This document shows positions 50,493 through 60,531 of a DNA stretch of 64,000 nucleotides, piece after piece (within the stretch, counting starts at the first letter, position 1; every line of letters begins with the position of its first letter). The stretch lies in NCBI GenBank assembly GCA_903876665.1, contig CAIRAY010000124.1:1-64000 (forward strand), in the 5' to 3' direction. Position numbers and translations under genes: made by a program. Source of the stretch: an uncultured Fibrobacterota bacterium. Lineage in GTDB: Bacteria > Fibrobacterota > Fibrobacteria > Fibrobacterales > Fibrobacteraceae. The notes under the pieces are model-generated. The model did no database searches. It had not been told where the DNA came from and was given only the letters and a program-made list of their open reading frames with translations.

Positions 50493-51620
50493 ATGGCATG
50501 GATAAAGCAGATTCGCGGGCCCTATATGTGTTACACGGTCGAGAAGGATTTCTTGACCTCCAACTTGATTGAGCAGAAGCCCTTTATTCTTCCCGATTTG
50601 CAAAAACCCGAGCACGACGTTGCCCTGGACATCCGCAAGTTGCGGGCCATCGATGTCCTTTCCCTCCGCTTTTTAGCCAACATGGATGAAATGCTCGAAA
50701 AGAAGGAACACCACCTGGTGCTGGTGGGTGGCGAACCCCAGATTTTGTCCCAGTTATTGGCTTTGCGCCCCATTCGGCATTTTCCAACCATGGCGGACTT
50801 TGAGCGGGAATTCCACGATTTGAACCCGGCCTTGGTGAAGTCCATTTTGCAATTGGCTCAAGGGGGCGTGGGGTTCAAAATGCTCCAGCTGCAATGTCCT
50901 CTTTGTCATTTCCAGGAAGTATCCGGATTTGTATTGGACGAAAGTAAATACAACCTGGTTTGGAGCCCTTCCGAAATTGTGCCCATCATGGTCCCGTCCA
51001 TTCCCGAAGCCGAGCGGATTGATTTTTCCTGTTACCGGGTGGCGGTTTGTCCGTCGTGTTTTTTTGCCTCTTCCCGCCCAGATCATTTTGGCATTCGCTT
51101 TCCGGAAGGAGAAATTAAAAGTATCCTCAAGCCAGAGCAAATAACCAATTTGCACTTGGGGCAAACGCCTCGAAAAGCGATCGCTGCGGAATATCGGGAA
51201 TCCTCCAAGGAATCCTTTTTTCACCCCCCACGGGACGCCGATGCGGGGTTTCTTTCCTGGAAGCTCCACGAGGCTTGTCAAAAGCAGATCAGCCAGGACC
51301 GGCGCTTTGTCGATGCCTTTGAAATTGTCCTCGCCAACTTCATGATGTGCAAATATGCTTCGAACGATCGCGTGATTGATGACCATTTGCATACTGCCCT
51401 GGCCTGGTTGAACAATGTGATGCAGAACCAGGACCAGTATTCGTCCCTGCGCTTGCAACAGGCTTACACCTTCTATGTCAGTGGATTGCTAGCGATCGAC
51501 AAGGTTTCCGAAGCTCACACGGCCTTTCGGGATTTTGAACACAAATTCAAAGAGGACTCTAGCGCCGATTTTTGGTTGCAGAGGGCTGAGTCGCTTATTT
51601 CCGAAAGCTCCCGGAGCTAA
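50493..51620 (+). CDS. STAS-like domain fused to a DUF2225-like zinc-ribbon protein
   Basis: 375 aa. Residues 1 to about 105 resemble a STAS fold (YTVEKDFLTSNLIEQKPFILPDLQKPEHDVALDIRKLRAIDVLSLRFLANMDEMLEKKEHHLVLVGGEP). The next part has paired CxxC motifs (LQCPLCHFQEVSGFVLDE and YRVAVCPSCFFASSRPDHF) as in DUF2225. The C-terminal third is helical and TPR-like (LHTALAWLNNVMQNQDQYSSLRLQQAYTFYVSGLL). No signal peptide. The start is defined by the promoter ending 6 nt upstream. The 3' end overlaps the converging comEC gene by 26 nt. Function unknown; a signalling or scaffolding role is likely. Confidence 0.7.
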   Translation: MAWIKQIRGPYMCYTVEKDFLTSNLIEQKPFILPDLQKPEHDVALDIRKLRAIDVLSLRFLANMDEMLEKKEHHLVLVGGEPQILSQLLALRPIRHFPTMADFEREFHDLNPALVKSILQLAQGGVGFKMLQLQCPLCHFQEVSGFVLDESKYNLVWSPSEIVPIMVPSIPEAERIDFSCYRVAVCPSCFFASSRPDHFGIRFPEGEIKSILKPEQITNLHLGQTPRKAIAAEYRESSKESFFHPPRDADAGFLSWKLHEACQKQISQDRRFVDAFEIVLANFMMCKYASNDRVIDDHLHTALAWLNNVMQNQDQYSSLRLQQAYTFYVSGLLAIDKVSEAHTAFRDFEHKFKEDSSADFWLQRAESLISESSRS

Positions 51621-53874
51621 TCCTTCCTTCACTGTCCCATTCAAAAAGAATGGATCCGTCATATTCGGTATTCCAAACCTGGCTGTGCAGGCTGTCTAAG
51701 CGTTTTAGGATGGATGGGGAAGGGTGGCCGTAGCGGTTCTCCAGTCCGCAGCTGATGACTGCATGCGTTGCGGAGCACCTTGCTAAAAATTCGCGCGAAG
51801 AGGAGTTTTGGGATCCATGGTGCCCCAGTTTAATTACTGGAACGCGGAGGGGAATGTTTCTTTTGAGCAAGGCCGCTTCTTCGGCAACGCCCAAATCCGC
51901 CATGAATAGTGCGGCAGGGCCATGCGGGCCATCCAAGCGCATTACGGCAGAGACCCCGTTCCAGTCTTCACCTTGGATTTGGTCGGGCGAATGGATCCAA
52001 TGGATTTTCCACGCACCAATGCCTTCGACCGCCATCCCTTCCCGTAGTGTGCGGATAGGAATTCCCCGTCGGGAAACTTCATCCAAAAAACGAACCCAGC
52101 CCGGTTTGTCGCAAAGGCGAATGGCTTCACCGATCCACAGGCTTTTTACCGGGAAGCTTTCTATTAATGACGTTGCTCCGCCATAATGATCCAAGTCGGG
52201 ATGGGAAATGATTAACGCGTCAATTTGTCCTATTCCCATCTTCCGGCAGAAGGGTACCAAGGTTCGGCTCCCATATTTTCCACTAAACTGCCCATTCCCC
52301 GCATCGAGGAGGAGAGTTTTGCCACTCGGAAACCGCAACATGGTTGCATCCCCCTGGGCGGCATCCAAAAACCAAATCTGCAGAGGAGGGTGGATCATGG
52401 TGAATCCCCAGGCACACCAGGCGATGGCGGCGCACCAGGTCAATTTTTGGGGACGGGCCTGGGGAAGCCATGCGAGGCCACCTGCCAAAATCAAAATACA
52501 TAGCCACAGAGGCCATGGCCCCATGGCGTAATTGGTCCCAGGCAGGGTTGAAAATATGTGCGTTACCTGAACCGAGGCCCCGACCAGGATGCTCGCTGCC
52601 TGTCCAAATCCCGTGGCAAGGGGCCCGCAGGCACAACTGAGCAAAAGCAATACGCCAGCCTCCATGGCAAATCCCATCAAGGGAATCACTAGCAAATTTC
52701 CCACAAAAGATATGGGGGAGAAACTTTGAAAATGATAGACCAGAATAGGAAATGTCCCTAGGGTTGCACAAAAACAAATCCAGGTGGGCGATAGGATCCA
52801 ATTATTGAGAAAAGGAAGAATCTTTGCACGTTTGCAGGGGTTAGAAGTCTGCCCGAGCAATATCCCCGCTGTAGCTCCGCAGGAAAGCTGAAACCCAATA
52901 TCTTCAAGGCTTGCGGGGTCAAATAGCAAGATGGAAGTGCAGGCGACTCCCAGTGCATGCAGGGAGAGCGACGGTCGTTCCATCCAGGCAGCAATTTGTA
53001 CCACCCCGAACATGAACACGGCTCGTTGGACTGAGGCCGATGAGCCCGTAATCGGGACAAAAATCATCAGCATGACTACGGTGAGCATGCGGGCATACTT
53101 GGGGGGAATCCGCAGGGCCGCCAGCATCATTTGCAAGAAGGAACTCAGAAACACAATGTGAAAGCCTGAAACCGTCAGAATATGGACCAGCCCAGTGGCC
53201 CGGAAATCCTGGCTGATGTCTTCATCCAAGCCCGATTTGTCGCCCACCAGCAAAGCCACCATTACGCCTCCCGTTTCGCGGAACATGTAGCGCTGACATA
53301 CCACTCTCAGCCATTCGCGGATTTTAAATGCCAAGCGTTCCGTGTGAAAATGGGAGTGGTCCGGCAGCCAGGAAAGCAGCACGCCACTTGCCATGCAATC
53401 CTGTGAGATGAGCCAGCGCCGTTGATCAAAGGAACCTGGCACGGTCAAATTCCCCAGGGTATCCCATTTGACTCGCCATTCGCCTTGGTCGCCAGGTAGC
53501 GGGAGCTGGTCTCCAGTTTTAGTGCGAAGAAGAACGCGATGGCCATTTTCCAGTTCGATCTGGAGCCGAAATCCCTTTGCCGTGCGGATCACCGATTGAA
53601 CCGAACCGGATCCCTTGCTTCCCAGGGCTGGAATTTTTTCCACCTCCGGAGTTTCAACCGCAAGCAAGCGTAAGGCAGCGAGCAAGGAAAATACCAAGAA
53701 AACCCGGCGAGGCTTCTGGGGAAGAGTGGTCGAGAGGATTAGCCAGAAAAGGACCAAAGGAGGAACCCACCAGGAGAATTCAGAAAACGAGCCCAGGGAA
53801 AAGGCCAGCACAACCGCCAAAGTGCTGATCCAACTTGGGCTGTTGTTAAGAATCTTGATTTTATGTAAATTCAA
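51595..53874 (-). CDS. comEC: ComEC/Rec2-family DNA uptake channel
   Basis: About 759 aa. An N-terminal soluble part (ENGHRVLLRTKTGDQLPLPGDQGEWRVKWDTLGNLTVPGSFDQRRWL) is followed by the competence membrane domain (FRATGLVHILTVSGFHIVFLSSFLQ, SSASVQRAVFMFGVVQIA, EDIGFQLSCGATAGILL, FVGNLLVIPLMGFAMEAGVLLLL). The C-terminal metallo-beta-lactamase domain has ISHPDLDHYGGATSL, LFMADLGVAEEAALL and IKLGHHGSQNSSSREFL. The protein carries transforming DNA across the inner membrane. The start is uncertain: TTG at 53874 gives a short membrane-type N-terminus; TTG at 53928 would overlap the divergent lipoprotein gene. Confidence 0.93.
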   Translation of the reverse strand: MNLHKIKILNNSPSWISTLAVVLAFSLGSFSEFSWWVPPLVLFWLILSTTLPQKPRRVFLVFSLLAALRLLAVETPEVEKIPALGSKGSGSVQSVIRTAKGFRLQIELENGHRVLLRTKTGDQLPLPGDQGEWRVKWDTLGNLTVPGSFDQRRWLISQDCMASGVLLSWLPDHSHFHTERLAFKIREWLRVVCQRYMFRETGGVMVALLVGDKSGLDEDISQDFRATGLVHILTVSGFHIVFLSSFLQMMLAALRIPPKYARMLTVVMLMIFVPITGSSASVQRAVFMFGVVQIAAWMERPSLSLHALGVACTSILLFDPASLEDIGFQLSCGATAGILLGQTSNPCKRAKILPFLNNWILSPTWICFCATLGTFPILVYHFQSFSPISFVGNLLVIPLMGFAMEAGVLLLLSCACGPLATGFGQAASILVGASVQVTHIFSTLPGTNYAMGPWPLWLCILILAGGLAWLPQARPQKLTWCAAIAWCAWGFTMIHPPLQIWFLDAAQGDATMLRFPSGKTLLLDAGNGQFSGKYGSRTLVPFCRKMGIGQIDALIISHPDLDHYGGATSLIESFPVKSLWIGEAIRLCDKPGWVRFLDEVSRRGIPIRTLREGMAVEGIGAWKIHWIHSPDQIQGEDWNGVSAVMRLDGPHGPAALFMADLGVAEEAALLKRNIPLRVPVIKLGHHGSQNSSSREFLARCSATHAVISCGLENRYGHPSPSILKRLDSLHSQVWNTEYDGSILFEWDSEGRISSGSFRK

Positions 53875-53917
53875 TATGGTTTCACCAGAAAAAACTTGGG
53901 TATTCTGGTTAGACGAT

Positions 53918-55165
53918 TTGGAGGTCAATCTGGTTCGTCATTTGGGAAAATATTTTGCAGGGGCGTTTTCGCTCCTTCTCGTGGGCTGTCTTTTTGACTC
54001 CGCCCCACCAGATCCCATCTCGCCCGGTGCAAATGGCGGGGATTACCGACTTTTTCCCAATGACTTGGGCAAAGCGGATTCGGCCGCCAAGTATTTTGCT
54101 CAAGGCGTTATTCTTCCCGGCCACCCGGGGGCATCTTATTCCCTGAGTTTTGTTGCGGGTGAGGGGAGCATTCCCAATCTGCGTTTGTACCGGTTGATTC
54201 CCAAGGGGGACCAATACATGTACACGACCGACCAGTTGATCGAGGGCAAGCTGTCCGAGGGGCAGTGGCGCTACGACTTCAACGCCAATTTCTCGAGCCA
54301 AATCGATTGGCTAACCATTCTGGAACAAAAAGGCAAGCGCTACGAAACCCCTCTGACAAATTTGCATTTTGCGGGTTGGGGATCCAACTCATCCCATATT
54401 TCTTTGAACCTTTGGATTACCGGAAAGTATGTTCCCCCTGCGGGTGGTGAAACTCCCCAAGAATTGGCGAAGCTGATTCTGGCTGGCTACCGGACAGCCT
54501 ATGGTCCGGCGGGAATTACTGTTGACACGGTCTATCTTCAATATGCGTCCAGCCACCGGCTATCAGGCAAATCTTTTCCTGATTCCTTGCCGATCGTAGC
54601 AGAAGATATTGAATCCCGCTTTGACAGCTTGGGCAATGGCCTGGCGCATCCCTATTCCGAGGCTTTGGACCTCGTGTTGATTTTCGGGTTCCAGGAGGAG
54701 GGGATGTTAGGATTATCGCCCCTGTTTGGGAAAAATTTGGAGGCCGGGGAGGCGGGTGTTGTCTTGCTTTCCACGCACCGCTCAAGCGCCGGACTGCAAG
54801 ACTTTACCGCAGTGGGGTCCGAGGTCATGGTGGCGACAGCGGTACATGAAACAGGTCATTTTTTTGGCCTGCGACACACAACGGTTACCCAGCGAGACAT
54901 GATGGCTTCCGGTGACTTTTCTGCAGAAGAGGATGGCATTGGCGACACTCCCTGGTGTCCGGGCCTTGCGTATCTGGTGGGAACTCGGGATATTCCCGTG
55001 AGCTCGAAATTTCTGTCCCGCAAATTTATTGCAGGCCTTGCAGCCTACCAATGTCCCGATGCCGAAAACCCCATGTTCCCCTATTCCACAGACGTGATCA
55101 TGGGTGCATTTACCGAAGGGCAAGGCGCCATTCTGGCCAAGAATCTATCCATTTTTCCGCATTGA
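53918..55165 (+). CDS. Metzincin-type zinc metalloprotease lipoprotein
   Basis: About 415 aa. The lipoprotein signal is LGKYFAGAFSLLLVGC. The N-terminal half is beta-rich (VILPGHPGASYSLSFVAGEGSIPNLRLYRL). The protease motif HETGHFFGLRH (HExxHxxGxxH) lies near residue 315, followed by a possible Met-turn in DMMASGD and DGIGDTPWC. It is probably a surface-exposed protease, by analogy to pappalysin- or fungalysin-like metzincins. Several starts are possible: ATG 53876, TTG 53918, or CTG 53930, which has GGAGG at the right distance. Confidence 0.78.
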   Translation: MEVNLVRHLGKYFAGAFSLLLVGCLFDSAPPDPISPGANGGDYRLFPNDLGKADSAAKYFAQGVILPGHPGASYSLSFVAGEGSIPNLRLYRLIPKGDQYMYTTDQLIEGKLSEGQWRYDFNANFSSQIDWLTILEQKGKRYETPLTNLHFAGWGSNSSHISLNLWITGKYVPPAGGETPQELAKLILAGYRTAYGPAGITVDTVYLQYASSHRLSGKSFPDSLPIVAEDIESRFDSLGNGLAHPYSEALDLVLIFGFQEEGMLGLSPLFGKNLEAGEAGVVLLSTHRSSAGLQDFTAVGSEVMVATAVHETGHFFGLRHTTVTQRDMMASGDFSAEEDGIGDTPWCPGLAYLVGTRDIPVSSKFLSRKFIAGLAAYQCPDAENPMFPYSTDVIMGAFTEGQGAILAKNLSIFPH

Positions 55166-55556: not shown

Positions 55557-56108
55557 ATGTCTCCTGTCGTTATACCCGCACAAATGTTGGTTTTTGTTTT
55601 GCAGTCAGGCAATGCCTGGGATGCCGAGCTGCTCACGGTGCTCGAAAAGACCTGGGGCCCCTTGCGTCACAAGGGCGATTGGCATCCCTTCGATCAAACC
55701 AACTACTACCAAGCCGAGATGGGGGCCAATCTCCATAGGGCTGTGGCTTCTTTCGATTGTCTAATCGATCCCTCCCGGATTGCCGCCGAAAAGCTTCGGA
55801 GCATTGCGGTGGAAGGAATCTGGACCGGGGAGGCTGGTGGCCGAAAATTCAATTTTGACATCGGCTATATGGATCCCGATAAGGTCGTTCTTCCCTCCTG
55901 CAAACAGGGACCCTGGAAGGTATACTGGGGCGAAGGAATTTGGCTGGACATCGTGATGCACTATGCTAAAGGCCACTTCGACGGGTCGCCCTGGTCCTTT
56001 GAAGACTTTGTGCGCAATCCCTACCAACGCGACCTGTTGCTGATCCGCGAAAAGTACAAGAAGTCGCTCAAGGCCAAGGACTCTAGTTCCCCAGGCGTCC
56101 AACAATGA
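55557..56108 (+). CDS. DUF4416-family protein
   Basis: 183 aa, cytoplasmic. Family signatures are WHPFDQTNYYQAEMGANLHRAVASFDCLIDPSRI, GGRKFNFDIGYMDPDKVVLPSCKQGPWKVYWGEGIWLDIVMHYAKGHFDGSPWSFEDFVRNPYQRDLLLIREKYKK. The family is found in many anaerobes and has no known function. The last 26 nt overlap the converging caspase-like gene. Confidence 0.85.
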   Translation: MSPVVIPAQMLVFVLQSGNAWDAELLTVLEKTWGPLRHKGDWHPFDQTNYYQAEMGANLHRAVASFDCLIDPSRIAAEKLRSIAVEGIWTGEAGGRKFNFDIGYMDPDKVVLPSCKQGPWKVYWGEGIWLDIVMHYAKGHFDGSPWSFEDFVRNPYQRDLLLIREKYKKSLKAKDSSSPGVQQ

Positions 56109-58182
56109 TGTTGGCTTGGAATCCGGTCCAGAAAATCATGCGCTGGGATCCTTGGATAATTTCTTGACTCTGCCAGTCACCAATGGGCTTGGCCATGATC
56201 GCCTGTTTTGAATCACGCTGAAGCATGTTTGCTGACATACCCGCCGAAAAGCCGATGTGCCGGGTGATGTTGTATCCGACTTCCAATTTGACTCGGTGCA
56301 AACTGTTGAAGTCCATGTTGCGTACTAGGCTGTCGGGATTGTGAGGACGGGCTTCCTTGTCCCACTGGATGGGGATGGAGTCCCATTTTTGGATGAAGTG
56401 ACTCGATGCGTCGAGGGACACCCAAAGGGGCCCTTGCATCCCAAAGCGGGTGCCAATGCCATAACCGGTTCCAATGGTTTCTGGGTTCCAGTTGTCCTGG
56501 CTCCACTCAAATACGTTGTAGAAAACCGGGGAACCACTAAAGATGCTCAGCCGGCGCCAGCGCATCTCATCCACGGAAACCTTGAATCCGTAAATTCCTT
56601 TGGCGGAGTAGCTGAAGAAGCCAATGGGTGCCTTGGCGTCTCCCGAAACATTGATAAAGCCAACTTGGGTGTGCGATGCTTTGGATGTATTCACAAATCC
56701 GACTTGCACACCGTTTTTGTTGGATCCGCTGACATTGACCAAGCCTGCCTGCAGGCCATGCAGGTCTTTGGCAACATTTACCATTCCGGCCTGCACACCA
56801 TGTAGGTTCTTGGAAATATTGACATAGCCGGCCTGCACCCCATTAATGTTGTGTGCATAGTTGACCGTGGCTGAAACTTGCACGCCATTGGAGGAATCTC
56901 CCGCAATGGTCCCGAGCAGTGCAAGTTGCAATCCATCAAATCCGCGATTGGCATAATTGAGTCCTAAAAACGAAAATTGATAGCCCTGGATTCCTTGGTC
57001 CGCTTCGTTTAACAGCATGGACATTTGGGTTCCGTGTATGCTGGTATCGGCCTTGGCCCGGAGAATATCCCATTGGAAAATTGTGGGCTTTTTGGCGATG
57101 TCAGCCCGCCAGTCTTTCTTTTCCGAACACTCGCCACAGGTTCCCCGGGACCGGGTTTGTTGCATAGAAACGGTGCTGAAATTTTTGGTGGTCAATGATA
57201 CTCGGCCTCCGGTGGGCAAGGTCACTTTGGCTTCGGAAAGGGTCTGAATTTCTACGCGGACCAAGTAGGTTCCGGGAGAAAGCCCGAGCTCAATGTCCCG
57301 TCCCAAGGGCTTGTGAAGCTCGGCTACGAGTTGTCCTTGCTGGTCGCGGATATAAAAACGACCTTGTAAGTCCTTATTGAGAAGAATTGCCGAGCCAATA
57401 CCACGCAGGTCAGTCATCACAACGTCCCCCGATCCGCTCAGGTTGAGATCGCGGGAAGGGTGTTGCATGCCTCCTATGGTCGCTTCTGTGCTATTTGTCG
57501 TCTCCTGAAAGGCAAACTGGTATGCCTCGCCCAAGGTGACCTTCTTGTCCCCGTTAAGGTCTGCAGCGCCACGCAGGCCCGTCACAAAGGCATGGGTAAA
57601 AAACGAGGCCCTTAGAGCGTCGCTTTCTTGGGAAACTTCGTCTTCGGTGCTTGAGGTCAGGAAGGCGGTTCCCTTCATGTTGGAGGATTCATCCACCAAA
57701 AATGCCGGCCGGCGCTGGCCACCTTTGGCCCGCACAATGGCGCCCGATCCACAGGCATCCAAAATGGTGATGCGCACATCCGCGGGAAGAGCCTCAATGC
57801 GGGTTCGCAGTTCCTTCCAAGTTACCGTGTTATTCCCGAGAAGGAGCCCTTGTTCATCGGCATGACCGGAATAGTAAACCATGACTTCCTTGCGGTCGGC
57901 TTTGGGGGCTCTTTGGAGAAGGACTGTGATTTGGTCCAAGCCCTTTCTCAGGGAATTCGGACTGGGATCCTCCACAAGGACCTGATTTTCTTTAGCCACT
58001 CCGCCCATGTCCTCAAATACCCGCATCATGGATTTGGCATCGGAGGCGGCATAACGAAGCGTGGGGCGCCCTGACCCCCCTTCATTGGAGGAGGTCAACA
58101 GAAGGAAACGTTGGATGTTTTCTGCATGCGCCTGGGTCAGGCAGAAGGTTCCCAAAAGAATCATGAGCTTGATTGCATTCAT
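56083..58182 (-). CDS. Secreted caspase-like (C14) protein with surface repeats and barrel-like end
   Basis: 699 aa with signal peptide (MNAIKLMILLGTFCLTQAHA). Residues 22 to about 260 form a caspase-like domain: TLRYAASDAKSMMRVFEDMGGV, KEVMVYYSGHADEQGLLL with His107, and ITILDACGSGAIVRAKGG with Cys144. A beta-sandwich with a PEGA-like look follows (ILLNKDLQGRFYIRDQQGQLVAELHKPLG). Residues of about 430-510 carry repeats of the LA_2272 surface type (NGVQAGYVNIS, HGVQAGMVNVA, HGLQAGLVNVS, NGVQVGFVNTS). The end is strand-rich (LEVGYNITRHIGFSAGMSANML) like an outer-membrane barrel. It is the third gene of the sigma/anti-sigma operon, 7 nt after the anti-sigma stop. Confidence 0.8.
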   Translation of the reverse strand: MNAIKLMILLGTFCLTQAHAENIQRFLLLTSSNEGGSGRPTLRYAASDAKSMMRVFEDMGGVAKENQVLVEDPSPNSLRKGLDQITVLLQRAPKADRKEVMVYYSGHADEQGLLLGNNTVTWKELRTRIEALPADVRITILDACGSGAIVRAKGGQRRPAFLVDESSNMKGTAFLTSSTEDEVSQESDALRASFFTHAFVTGLRGAADLNGDKKVTLGEAYQFAFQETTNSTEATIGGMQHPSRDLNLSGSGDVVMTDLRGIGSAILLNKDLQGRFYIRDQQGQLVAELHKPLGRDIELGLSPGTYLVRVEIQTLSEAKVTLPTGGRVSLTTKNFSTVSMQQTRSRGTCGECSEKKDWRADIAKKPTIFQWDILRAKADTSIHGTQMSMLLNEADQGIQGYQFSFLGLNYANRGFDGLQLALLGTIAGDSSNGVQVSATVNYAHNINGVQAGYVNISKNLHGVQAGMVNVAKDLHGLQAGLVNVSGSNKNGVQVGFVNTSKASHTQVGFINVSGDAKAPIGFFSYSAKGIYGFKVSVDEMRWRRLSIFSGSPVFYNVFEWSQDNWNPETIGTGYGIGTRFGMQGPLWVSLDASSHFIQKWDSIPIQWDKEARPHNPDSLVRNMDFNSLHRVKLEVGYNITRHIGFSAGMSANMLQRDSKQAIMAKPIGDWQSQEIIQGSQRMIFWTGFQANIIVGRLGN

Positions 58183-58189
58183 AAGATCC

Positions 58190-58993
58190 TCACTTGCGGA
58201 TGACGATCCGAGTTTGTTGAAAGTGCGCATCGAGAGGTAGGCTTGTGGGTGGTTCGGAATTTCCAGAAAGGGTTTCTAGAATAGTTACCAGAGAATCCAC
58301 GGAAAAGGGCTCAGTCGAGGTGATCAGCCAAAAGGCTTCGAAGTAAGGTGCGCGGTCCAGCTCGTAAGCGAAAGGAAGGAAACCGGTTAGGCCCGGTTCG
58401 GTCTTGGCTGCAGCAGTTCCCGCCTCGGGAAAGTGTGTGGTCCACTGGCCCCGGCCATCCAGGGAAATGATGGAGGCAAAGCATTTTTTGGAAACCTGAT
58501 AATGGATTTGGATCAGATCCCCATTGTTCAGTTTGGCACCTTCAAGAATATGGGCTATCGTATCTCCTGTTTTTAGGAACAGTTGGATGTGATCCTGGAG
58601 GCCTTTGATACGAATATCACTTGGGTTTTGAATTCCTGCCACTTCGATATTCTGCGGAAGGATATCCCGATTGGACAAAAAGTATGCAACAGAAAGGGAA
58701 AGGATCAAAACCGCTGTCAGGGCTACGCGGAAGGGAAGAGTCACCAGGAATCCTGGGCGGGTATTGACTGCGCTGGACCGGGCCGTAGCGAGGGCCTGCA
58801 GACGTTTGGCGGTCTGCGTTGGATCCAAGCGGCCTAACAAGGCAACGTTATCCGCAAGCAATGCGTCTAGGTTGGCTTGGACCTCGGGGTGGGTGTGGGC
58901 CGCTTTATTTATTTGGGCAAGCTCATCAGCTGGGAGTTCTCCGAGAAGATAGCGCTCCAGTTTCCAGTCGGGTATTCCGCTTGTGCTGCTCAT
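58190..58993 (-). CDS. Membrane anti-sigma factor with DUF4384-like sensor part
   Basis: 267 aa. The N-terminal helical region (IPDWKLERYLLGELPADELAQINKAAHTHPEVQANLDALLADN) resembles zinc-less anti-sigma domains. One membrane helix lies near 90-107 (FRVALTAVLILSLSVAYFLS). The periplasmic part (ILEGAKLNNGDLIQIHYQVSKKCFASIISLDGRGQWTTHFPEAG) recalls DUF4384, seen next to caspase-like proteins. Its ATG overlaps the stop of the ECF sigma gene (ATGA). It probably holds the sigma factor at the membrane until an envelope signal arrives. Confidence 0.78.
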   Translation of the reverse strand: MSSTSGIPDWKLERYLLGELPADELAQINKAAHTHPEVQANLDALLADNVALLGRLDPTQTAKRLQALATARSSAVNTRPGFLVTLPFRVALTAVLILSLSVAYFLSNRDILPQNIEVAGIQNPSDIRIKGLQDHIQLFLKTGDTIAHILEGAKLNNGDLIQIHYQVSKKCFASIISLDGRGQWTTHFPEAGTAAAKTEPGLTGFLPFAYELDRAPYFEAFWLITSTEPFSVDSLVTILETLSGNSEPPTSLPLDAHFQQTRIVIRK

Positions 58994-59463
58994 GTTTCCT
59001 CCAACAAATTCAGCGTGGACCTCAAGGCGCGGATCCGTTTGCGTACACCCGAAACCGACATCTTGACTTCCCGCGCCACCTCTTCGAGGGTCATCCCGTC
59101 GTGCAAATGCAAAACGGCGATGGTGCGCGTGGACTCAGGATGCTTCCCGAACAGGCGATCGAGGACACTACGGGCTTCGAGGCGGGCGTAGTCGTCATCG
59201 AGGGATGCGATGCGCGAGATCAGGTCGTTCCCATCAGGTTCGCCCCGTCGCTTGCGATCGCGGATCCGGTTCAGGCAGAGTCGAGTGGCCATATTCCAGA
59301 GCAGGCTCGAGGGATACTCGTCGGTGAGCCTGGTTTGGTGCTCCAGCAGCTTCAAAAACACCTCCTGGGAGATGTCCTCGGCTTCGGCTGGGTCACGCAA
59401 AAGTTGCACGCACCTGCGGGTAACCATGGGTCCATATTTCCGGAACAAAACTTCCACGTCCAT
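58990..59463 (-). CDS. ECF-family RNA polymerase sigma factor
   Basis: 157 aa. Region 2 is VEVLFRKYGPMVTRRCVQLLRDPAEAEDISQEVFLKLLEHQTRLTDEYPSSLLWNMATRLCLNRIRDRKRR. Region 4 is LDRLFGKHPESTRTIAVLHLHDGMTLEEVAREVKMSVSGVRKRIRALRSTLNLL, with a helix-turn-helix. It should direct polymerase to its own regulon, commonly including this operon. The ATG at 59463 has AAGGG seven bases upstream; ATG 59469 is also possible. The frame stays open to 59655 but that part does not look like a sigma factor. Confidence 0.92.
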   Translation of the reverse strand: MDVEVLFRKYGPMVTRRCVQLLRDPAEAEDISQEVFLKLLEHQTRLTDEYPSSLLWNMATRLCLNRIRDRKRRGEPDGNDLISRIASLDDDYARLEARSVLDRLFGKHPESTRTIAVLHLHDGMTLEEVAREVKMSVSGVRKRIRALRSTLNLLEET

Positions 59464-59676
59464 TGACATACCCTTGTAACACCCGACTTGTGGGAAAGTG
59501 TCACCAGAATTTAGAAAGAATGGGATTGGGTCCTTCGGTGTGTCACCCCGGCCTCCTGGAGGTAAATTCCGACGGGGATCTGGGGCAATGCTACATGGCT
59601 TTGATCCCTTGTAATTTCCGAGTCCAACACCTACATTCTCTTCGCAATTCGCCATGACGGTAAGGAGATAGATGTA

Positions 59677-60531
59677 ATGAAAACCAAAATATTGAATTTG
59701 TTTGCACTTACCGCTGTCTTTTCCTTGCTGGGCTGTGGCACCGAGGTAAACCCGGTTGTAGACCCGTCGAGTTCGTCGGACGCTGATTATTCGAGTGAAT
59801 CTCCCTCCTCCAGCTCCTCATTCACAGAGGTTGTGGTTTCGAGTTCATCGGAGGTGGCATCGTCATCGAGCCTGGTCCCGTCGAGCTCGTCGGTTGTTGT
59901 GTCGTCGAGCGTTGTTCCGTCGAGTTCATCCATCGCAGAGTCTTCAAGCATTGCGCCTTCATCCAGTGTTGCTGTCTCATCTTCATCCTCGTTGCCGATT
60001 CCAGGTACTCCGGGTGCGGATCTTGTTTACGGTGGCCAGACATATAAAACCGTCATTATGGGTACCCAAACCTGGATGGCCGAGAACTTGAATTTTTCGA
60101 CTGCTACGGGCTCGTGGTGCTATGGCGAACTCGCCACCAATTGCACAACATACGGCAGGCTGTACAACTATGCAACCGCTTTGACCGTTTGCCCCAGTGG
60201 CTGGCATTTGCCAGACACTACCGCTTGGCATACTCTGGAAGCCACAGTGGGCGGAAGTGCCACGGCAGGGACCAAGCTCAAAGCCAATAGCGCCTTGTGG
60301 CGAACAAATACGGGAACGGATAATTTCGGATTTTCCGCCTTGCCCGGTGGCTACTACACATACCTCGGCTCGAACTTCTACAATATTGGCGGTTTCGGTT
60401 ACTGGTGGACGGCCACGCCCCGTGGCAGCTTCATCTACTATCGGTTCATGGAGTTCGATGGGGCGTATGTGGCCGACCTATACGACATGAGTCAGGCCAC
60501 CGGCTTATCCGTGCGCTGCTTGAAGGATTAA
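59677..60531 (+). CDS. FISUMP-domain lipoprotein with serine-rich linker
   Basis: 284 aa. The lipoprotein signal (MKTKILNLFALTAVFSLLGC) is followed by a linker of about 85 residues made mostly of Ser with Val, Ala and Pro (for example SSSSEVASSSSLVPSSSS), a Fibrobacter hallmark. The FISUMP domain runs from about 115 to the end: YKTVIMGTQTWMAENLNF, CTTYGRLYNYATALTVCPSGWHLPDTTAWHTLEATVGG, TDNFGFSALPGGYY and GLSVRCLKD. AAGGAGA precedes the ATG by nine bases. It is divergent from the ECF operon, with 213 nt between start codons. The domain is about 60 percent alike by eye to that of the 44.1 kb product. Confidence 0.9.
   Translation: MKTKILNLFALTAVFSLLGCGTEVNPVVDPSSSSDADYSSESPSSSSSFTEVVVSSSSEVASSSSLVPSSSSVVVSSSVVPSSSSIAESSSIAPSSSVAVSSSSSLPIPGTPGADLVYGGQTYKTVIMGTQTWMAENLNFSTATGSWCYGELATNCTTYGRLYNYATALTVCPSGWHLPDTTAWHTLEATVGGSATAGTKLKANSALWRTNTGTDNFGFSALPGGYYTYLGSNFYNIGGFGYWWTATPRGSFIYYRFMEFDGAYVADLYDMSQATGLSVRCLKD

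Follow-up and report, generated by a model that had tools for sequence, protein, structure and literature searches.

Introduction

Operons that pair a sigma-70 factor with a metacaspase were reported in 2012 from Myxococcus, Anaeromyxobacter, Haliangium, Sorangium, Ralstonia and Fibrobacter (Asplund-Samuelsson et al., PMC3501461), the operon section of that report placing four of the five M. xanthus metacaspases in such operons and noting them as conserved. Here we describe an operon of the same kind in an uncultured Fibrobacterota bacterium, within a window of 64 kb (the whole stretch of DNA analysed, positions 1 to 64,000 of contig CAIRAY010000124.1 and part of that one contig) of a 4.3 Mb genome. 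In this operon, overlapping or touching genes on the minus strand (56083-59469) encode an extracytoplasmic function (ECF) sigma factor, an anti-sigma factor and a secreted caspase. The sequence-only reading of this window had named the operon as its best candidate for an undescribed system. As a gene arrangement it was already on record; the anti-sigma factor, cut sites, promoter, regulon and mechanism, however, are absent from the operon section of the 2012 report, and our search of the open-access literature turned up no account of the anti-sigma link, of cut-like sites, of the promoter or of the regulon. What we add are pairs of a basic residue and glycine in linkers of both the caspase and the anti-sigma factor, which are candidate cut sites, a promoter shared across phyla, and a set of putative regulon sites. 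On this basis we propose, as an account that we think somewhat more probable than its negation, that a caspase tethered to the outer membrane makes the site-1 cut, thereby inactivating the anti-sigma factor and switching on a TonB/ExbBD uptake regulon.

Several described systems resemble this locus in part. FecI-FecR-FecA shares with it an ECF sigma factor, a single-span anti-sigma factor, periplasmic and intramembrane proteolysis (the cuts being proposed only in our case) and TonB-dependent transport as the output (PMC9249621, PMC11637429). It differs in that a Pfam scan of our anti-sigma factor found no FecR domain up to E 0.1, in that no N-terminal signalling domain was found on the TonB receptor linked to the promoter described below (Plug alone was found), and in that the sigma operon itself encodes the putative outer-membrane part, a fusion of caspase and barrel. 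Thus, by analogy, the unit resembles cell-surface signalling but falls outside the FecIR definition, because both the FecR domain and the signalling domain on the receptor are missing. The sigma E pathway RseA-DegS-RseP is alike in having a site-1 cut, putative here, in a short linker after the membrane span, followed by the action of a site-2 protease; its site-1 enzyme is a PDZ-trypsin protease, whereas here it would be a caspase (C14). In the Craspase system (Csx29-Csx30-CASP-sigma; PMC10028731), the sigma inhibitor is cleaved by a protease of the caspase superfamily (CHAT), which frees an ECF sigma factor, as we infer for this operon; for such an action on a sigma inhibitor, it is the closest known parallel. 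Craspase differs in being cytoplasmic, RNA-activated and CRISPR-linked, and in having no membrane span, export or barrel. The best profile of our caspase is C14, and for the three genes PADLOC gave no CRISPR-type match of note, no genome-wide CRISPR search having been made. Finally, caspase and ECF sigma genes are likewise adjacent in the EACC2-caspase/ECF sigma/DUF1822 neighbourhoods (PMC8195603), for which signal-induced autoproteolysis was proposed; these differ from our operon in their EACC2 domain, TPR partner and variable C-termini, and in the absence of a DUF4384-like anti-sigma factor.

Results

A conserved operon for a sigma factor, an anti-sigma factor and a secreted caspase

The ECF sigma factor (159 amino acids; 58990-59469, minus strand) scores above the cut-offs of Pfam Sigma70_r2 (48.8 bits; cut-off 24), Sigma70_ECF and the NCBIfam model sigma70-ECF (64.7 bits; cut-off 42.9). 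Its gene starts at ATG 59469 or at an alternative ATG at 59463, about 8 or 14 nucleotides past the -10 element of the promoter. The anti-sigma factor (267 amino acids; 58190-58993, minus strand; AlphaFold2 mean predicted local distance difference test score, pLDDT, 86) has a single membrane span near residues 88-107 and a periplasmic DUF4384-like domain, whose match to PF14326 is real but, at 21.5 bits, lies under the curated cut-off of 27. When the anti-sigma model was compared by Foldseek with solved structures, none matched at E<=0.001, and the weak matches were beta-sandwich look-alikes only.

The caspase (699 amino acids; 56083-58182, minus strand) was delineated using profile matches together with AlphaFold2. 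It begins with the signal peptide MNAIKLMILLGTFCLTQAHA, which is followed by a p20-like domain (residues 23-258; 57409-58116, minus strand) carrying the catalytic residues H107 (codon 57862-57864, minus strand) and C144 (codon 57751-57753, minus strand). The protein belongs to Pfam Peptidase_C14 (37.4 bits; cut-off 21.4), Foldseek matched the caspase domain to caspases and metacaspases, and its score against the EACC1-associated caspase model NF047832 (66 bits) is below the cut-off of 140. Beyond this domain lie a beta-strand domain (residues 259-340; 57163-57408, minus strand; AlphaFold2 strands mostly at pLDDT 82-90), a disordered linker (residues 341-355; pLDDT <50) and a barrel-like C-terminal domain (residues 356-699; 56086-57117, minus strand), which contains LA_2272 repeats in three stretches (NF047436, 47.8 bits; cut-off 25) and is modelled with high confidence as about 26 beta-strands. 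Many of the caspase homologues have a C-terminal aromatic G[RK]F, as outer-membrane barrels usually do. Taken together, the strands, the repeats and the C-terminus indicate that the C-terminal domain is probably a membrane barrel in the outer membrane. The coordinates and descriptions that the sequence-only reading gave for the sigma factor, the anti-sigma factor and the secreted caspase with its His107/Cys144 dyad all hold, as does its joining of the caspase to LA_2272 repeats and a barrel-like end.

Homologous loci were gathered solely through their caspase sequence, with no use of gene neighbourhood, and relatives in other genomes were obtained using an alignment query, a single-protein query having given none; the DNA around 60 Fibrobacterota loci and 79 loci from other genomes was then compared. 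Within the phylum, 122 of 151 sampled genomes encode the caspase. Of 137 non-redundant caspases with at least 1.5 kb of upstream sequence, 127 are directly preceded on the same strand by the sigma gene and then the anti-sigma gene, three by an anti-sigma gene only and seven by neither. Nearly all loci compared, those from Fermentibacteria being part of the set, keep this order, which is present in Fibrobacterota, Myxococcota, Spirochaetota, Latescibacterota, Gemmatimonadota, Acidobacteriota and others, and in a complete Archangium genome eight of the nine full-length anti-sigma matches adjoin a caspase. Since the caspase is encoded in so many of the sampled genomes and the three-gene order is kept at 127 of 137 loci, the association is beyond chance: the operon is real and widely conserved. 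Both catalytic residues are invariant across all 147 caspase homologues (147/147), as are D48 and D142, which by their sequence position are candidate acidic residues of the specificity (S1) pocket. The sequence-only reading had named two outcomes as damaging, namely homologues that routinely lack the dyad and genes never found together elsewhere, and both are excluded by these counts.

A shared promoter and a putative envelope regulon

Upstream of the sigma gene we identified the putatively autoregulatory ECF promoter GTGACA-N15-GGTGTT (59478-59504, minus strand), with no other exact match in the 64 kb, where 0.02 were expected. A slightly relaxed form of GTRACA-N15-GGTGTT is present in 76 of 125 regions upstream of sigma genes, across phyla, against about 0.5 expected, and in 71 of these 76 the spacer is exactly 15. 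A shared ECF motif, for which the sequence-only reading had suggested a comparison of promoters, is thus found at these genes.

The regulon of the studied genome was surveyed using pattern searches, which located three copies of the motif in the whole genome. The second sits, inverted, at the head of an operon of seven genes, which encode a TonB-dependent receptor, a lipoprotein, DUF3450, ExbB (twice), ExbD and TonB. In Fibrobacter genomes, further copies of the motif stand directly before the orthologous receptor, before the lipoprotein and before the DUF3450-ExbB-ExbB-ExbD-TonB operon, near the caspase operon, and in two other Fibrobacterota families copies precede ExbB/ExbD genes, accompanied by TonB in one of them. 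TonB-receptor genes carry the motif in Fibrobacter, in genome G104, in Latescibacteria and in Myxococcus. In a Myxococcus sp. (G152:C40; L296, L219), a single copy of the motif precedes genes for ExbB, ExbD, a fusion of TonB and TonB receptor, a lipoprotein and a caspase, with no linked sigma or anti-sigma gene. Immediately downstream of the motif, genes for DUF2807 (head GIN domain) occur in Fibrobacterota, Myxococcota and a spirochaete (L286, L298, L305, L308, L309), and stand-alone LA_2272-type barrel genes lie behind it in two phyla. Because a reversed control pattern gave 28 matches versus 76 for the motif (21 genomes), some single matches elsewhere are probably due to chance; the convergence of the targets on TonB and envelope genes, judged from these predicted sites, would not be expected by chance. 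In addition, some short-type Fibrobacterota caspase operons (L078-L089) have a second promoter class upstream, TGAGCG-N15-CGTGTC, which suggests a second sigma specificity; these operons carry K-G in place of R-G in the caspase linker pair described below.

These targets bear on the idea, suggested in 2012 for Myxococcus metacaspase operons (PMC3501461), that the sigma factor turns on a caspase whose task is programmed cell death or autolysis. The genes behind the candidate regulon sites are those for TonB/ExbBD, TonB receptors and lipoproteins, not genes for lysis or death, and the caspase is exported and presumably anchored in the outer membrane, making such a role very improbable in our estimate.

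A number of variant arrangements were also observed. Archangium has a split system, in which a sigma and anti-sigma pair without a caspase (L202; G151:C1 ~5719700) and an anti-sigma and caspase pair without a detected sigma gene (L201; G151:C1 ~410500) each stand behind the same promoter motif. At L211:5436-6023 (minus strand), an orphan sigma/anti-sigma pair is followed by a 195-amino-acid barrel-only protein, with an R-K-G linker kept; its gene looks like a former caspase gene from which the caspase domain is gone. Three Latescibacterota loci (L099, L102, L103) have a longer operon that includes a second caspase, which has an R-G linker too, and L099 has a gene for a 558-amino-acid exported protein between the two caspases.

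Basic-glycine pairs in two linkers and a proposed mechanism

The non-metazoan C14 proteases characterised so far cleave after Arg/Lys (PMC5756287), and membership of this class and the candidate pocket residues D48 and D142 are compatible with the same specificity in our caspase. A matching dipeptide is found in linkers of two adjacent proteins of the operon. In the anti-sigma factor, the linker that joins the membrane span to the folded domain ends in R-x-K-G despite its variable length, the distance from the span to the K-G pair ranging from 7 to 79 residues (median 21.5). Across 140 non-redundant homologues, the aligned pair consists of K (138) or R (2) followed by G (140), at least two sequences (L076 KSG, L090 KAG) reaching the K-G column through a one-residue shift by the aligner; these are the two most conserved columns of the protein. 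In the studied anti-sigma factor, the putative cleavage site is R128-I-K130-G131 (codons 58601-58612, minus strand), which AlphaFold2 places in a low-confidence linker (pLDDT ~55) just before strand 1 (residue 135). Without alignment, R.KG lies within 60 residues of the span in 80% of anti-sigma factors versus 2% in shuffles, and [RK].[KR]G is found in just one of about 20 generic anti-sigma factors from the same or related genomes. In the caspase, the disordered linker before the beta-barrel holds a putative self-cleavage site, R346-G347 (codons 57142-57147, minus strand), where 141 of 143 homologues have a basic residue (R 108, K 33) and 140 have the glycine, while neighbouring columns vary. 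The caspase is proposed to cut both linkers because the same dipeptide occurs in both and because the C14 class cleaves after Arg/Lys, and this shared pair is the main evidence suggesting that it does.

In the mechanism that we propose, the ECF sigma factor would be kept at the inner membrane by the single-span anti-sigma factor, while the exported caspase would have its C-terminal beta-domain inserted in the outer membrane and its caspase domain held in the periplasm. Upon a signal, the caspase would cut itself after Arg346 and leave the barrel, and would cut the anti-sigma linker after Lys130, between K and G of R-I-K-G, removing the folded periplasmic domain. The position of the K-G pair after the span fits the place where a site-1 cut would be needed. 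The remaining stub would then be cleaved by an M50 family site-2 protease, freeing the sigma factor; the traits associated with regulated intramembrane proteolysis are both found, in the form of the single span (88-107) and a gene for an M50 protease in the studied genome (E 6e-62). Freed sigma factor would transcribe its own operon from GTRACA-N15-GGTGTT, giving positive feedback, and would drive an envelope regulon consisting chiefly of TonB/ExbB/ExbD energisation genes and a TonB-dependent receptor. We give an even chance to the broader proposal that these loci form a class of caspase-driven transmembrane signalling in at least six phyla, in which a tethered caspase would sense the envelope or nutrient state, cleave itself between Arg and Gly, cut its inhibitor between Lys and Gly of Arg-x-Lys-Gly, and induce genes for TonB uptake and the envelope along with its own.

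Several points weigh against this mechanism. A [KR]G pair arises by chance in about 50% of shuffled linkers, and therefore the claim on the caspase side rests on the conservation of the columns, not on mere presence. The K-G pair of the anti-sigma factor precedes strand 1 of the modelled folded domain by four residues and could be structural. The caspase-unlinked anti-sigma genes at L202 and L211 keep the basic-glycine motif, with a caspase elsewhere in both genomes. The barrel is a prediction from strands, repeats and C-terminus. Lastly, the second genomic copy of the promoter motif is inverted, pointing away from the TonB operon and toward a saccharopine dehydrogenase gene.

Some of these points are shared by two other explanations. 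The caspase might be a mere output of the pathway, as an envelope-stress protease, with the site-1 cut made by a Prc- or DegS-like protease and the basic-glycine pairs either structural or serving that enzyme. Site-1 proteases of cell-surface signalling and RseA systems are general ones such as Prc or DegS (PMC9249621), the caspase gene comes last in an autoregulated operon, and the basic-glycine motif persists at L202 and L211, where a caspase is not linked. What this explanation leaves unaccounted for is that near-invariant copies of the same dipeptide occur in two unrelated linkers of adjacent proteins and match the specificity of the enzyme class, and that the motif is missing from generic anti-sigma factors of the same or related genomes; we therefore take it to be unlikely. 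Alternatively, the caspase might process only itself at R346-G347, for maturation, release of the barrel or a response to damage, affecting the sigma factor indirectly, while the K-G pair would be part of the anti-sigma fold and never be cut. The conservation of the caspase linker and the closeness of the anti-sigma pair to strand 1 would both fit; yet this most conserved pair of the anti-sigma factor lies in a low-confidence linker of variable length, whereas residues with a structural role ought to lie within the fold, and we consider such an arrangement improbable. The proposed cleavage of the anti-sigma factor by the caspase remains our preferred account.

The neighbouring FISUMP lipoprotein and other genes

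Divergent from the sigma gene, and 213 nucleotides from 59463, lies a gene for a FISUMP lipoprotein with a long Ser-rich linker (59677-60531, plus strand; 154 bits, cut-off 41.65), which the sequence-only reading had put forward as target or partner of an outer-membrane protease. The case for it is the adjacency seen in this window only; as a neighbour FISUMP is not conserved, with 13 scattered matches, mostly non-adjacent, in all loci compared. The comparison of promoters upstream of 59463 and 59677 gave the motif on the sigma side and, toward the FISUMP gene, only the mirror image of the sigma promoter and no separate motif; as this element is nearly palindromic, it may be used weakly in the divergent direction. 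We regard the FISUMP link as highly improbable and reject it. The conserved autoregulated unit, the intact dyad and the secreted, barrel-joined caspase of the earlier interpretation thus stand without it, and the better-supported candidates, on sequence grounds, are the anti-sigma factor as substrate and the TonB/ExbBD uptake regulon as output.

Other open reading frames in the window encode a ComEC/Rec2-like protein (51595-53928, minus strand) and a zinc-metalloprotease-like lipoprotein with the motif HETGHFFGLRH (53615-55165, plus strand). DUF4416 was considered as a conserved operon partner and rejected on a survey of the loci of relatives. An identity as a defence system was likewise unsupported, PADLOC returning nothing for the caspase and the anti-sigma factor and a weak partial match for the sigma factor.

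Discussion

The roles of bacterial caspase homologues are largely unknown, and these proteins have often been discussed as relics of cell death. The analysis presented here gives one widespread group of them a candidate signalling role, with a predicted substrate, cut sites at residue level, a promoter and a regulon. Species that grow in culture, among them Fibrobacter succinogenes and Myxococcus xanthus, would allow these predictions to be tested. If true, the mechanism would explain the sigma/metacaspase operon that was reported in 2012 without a function, and anti-sigma proteolysis would gain a caspase-based route, a counterpart of CRISPR Craspase.

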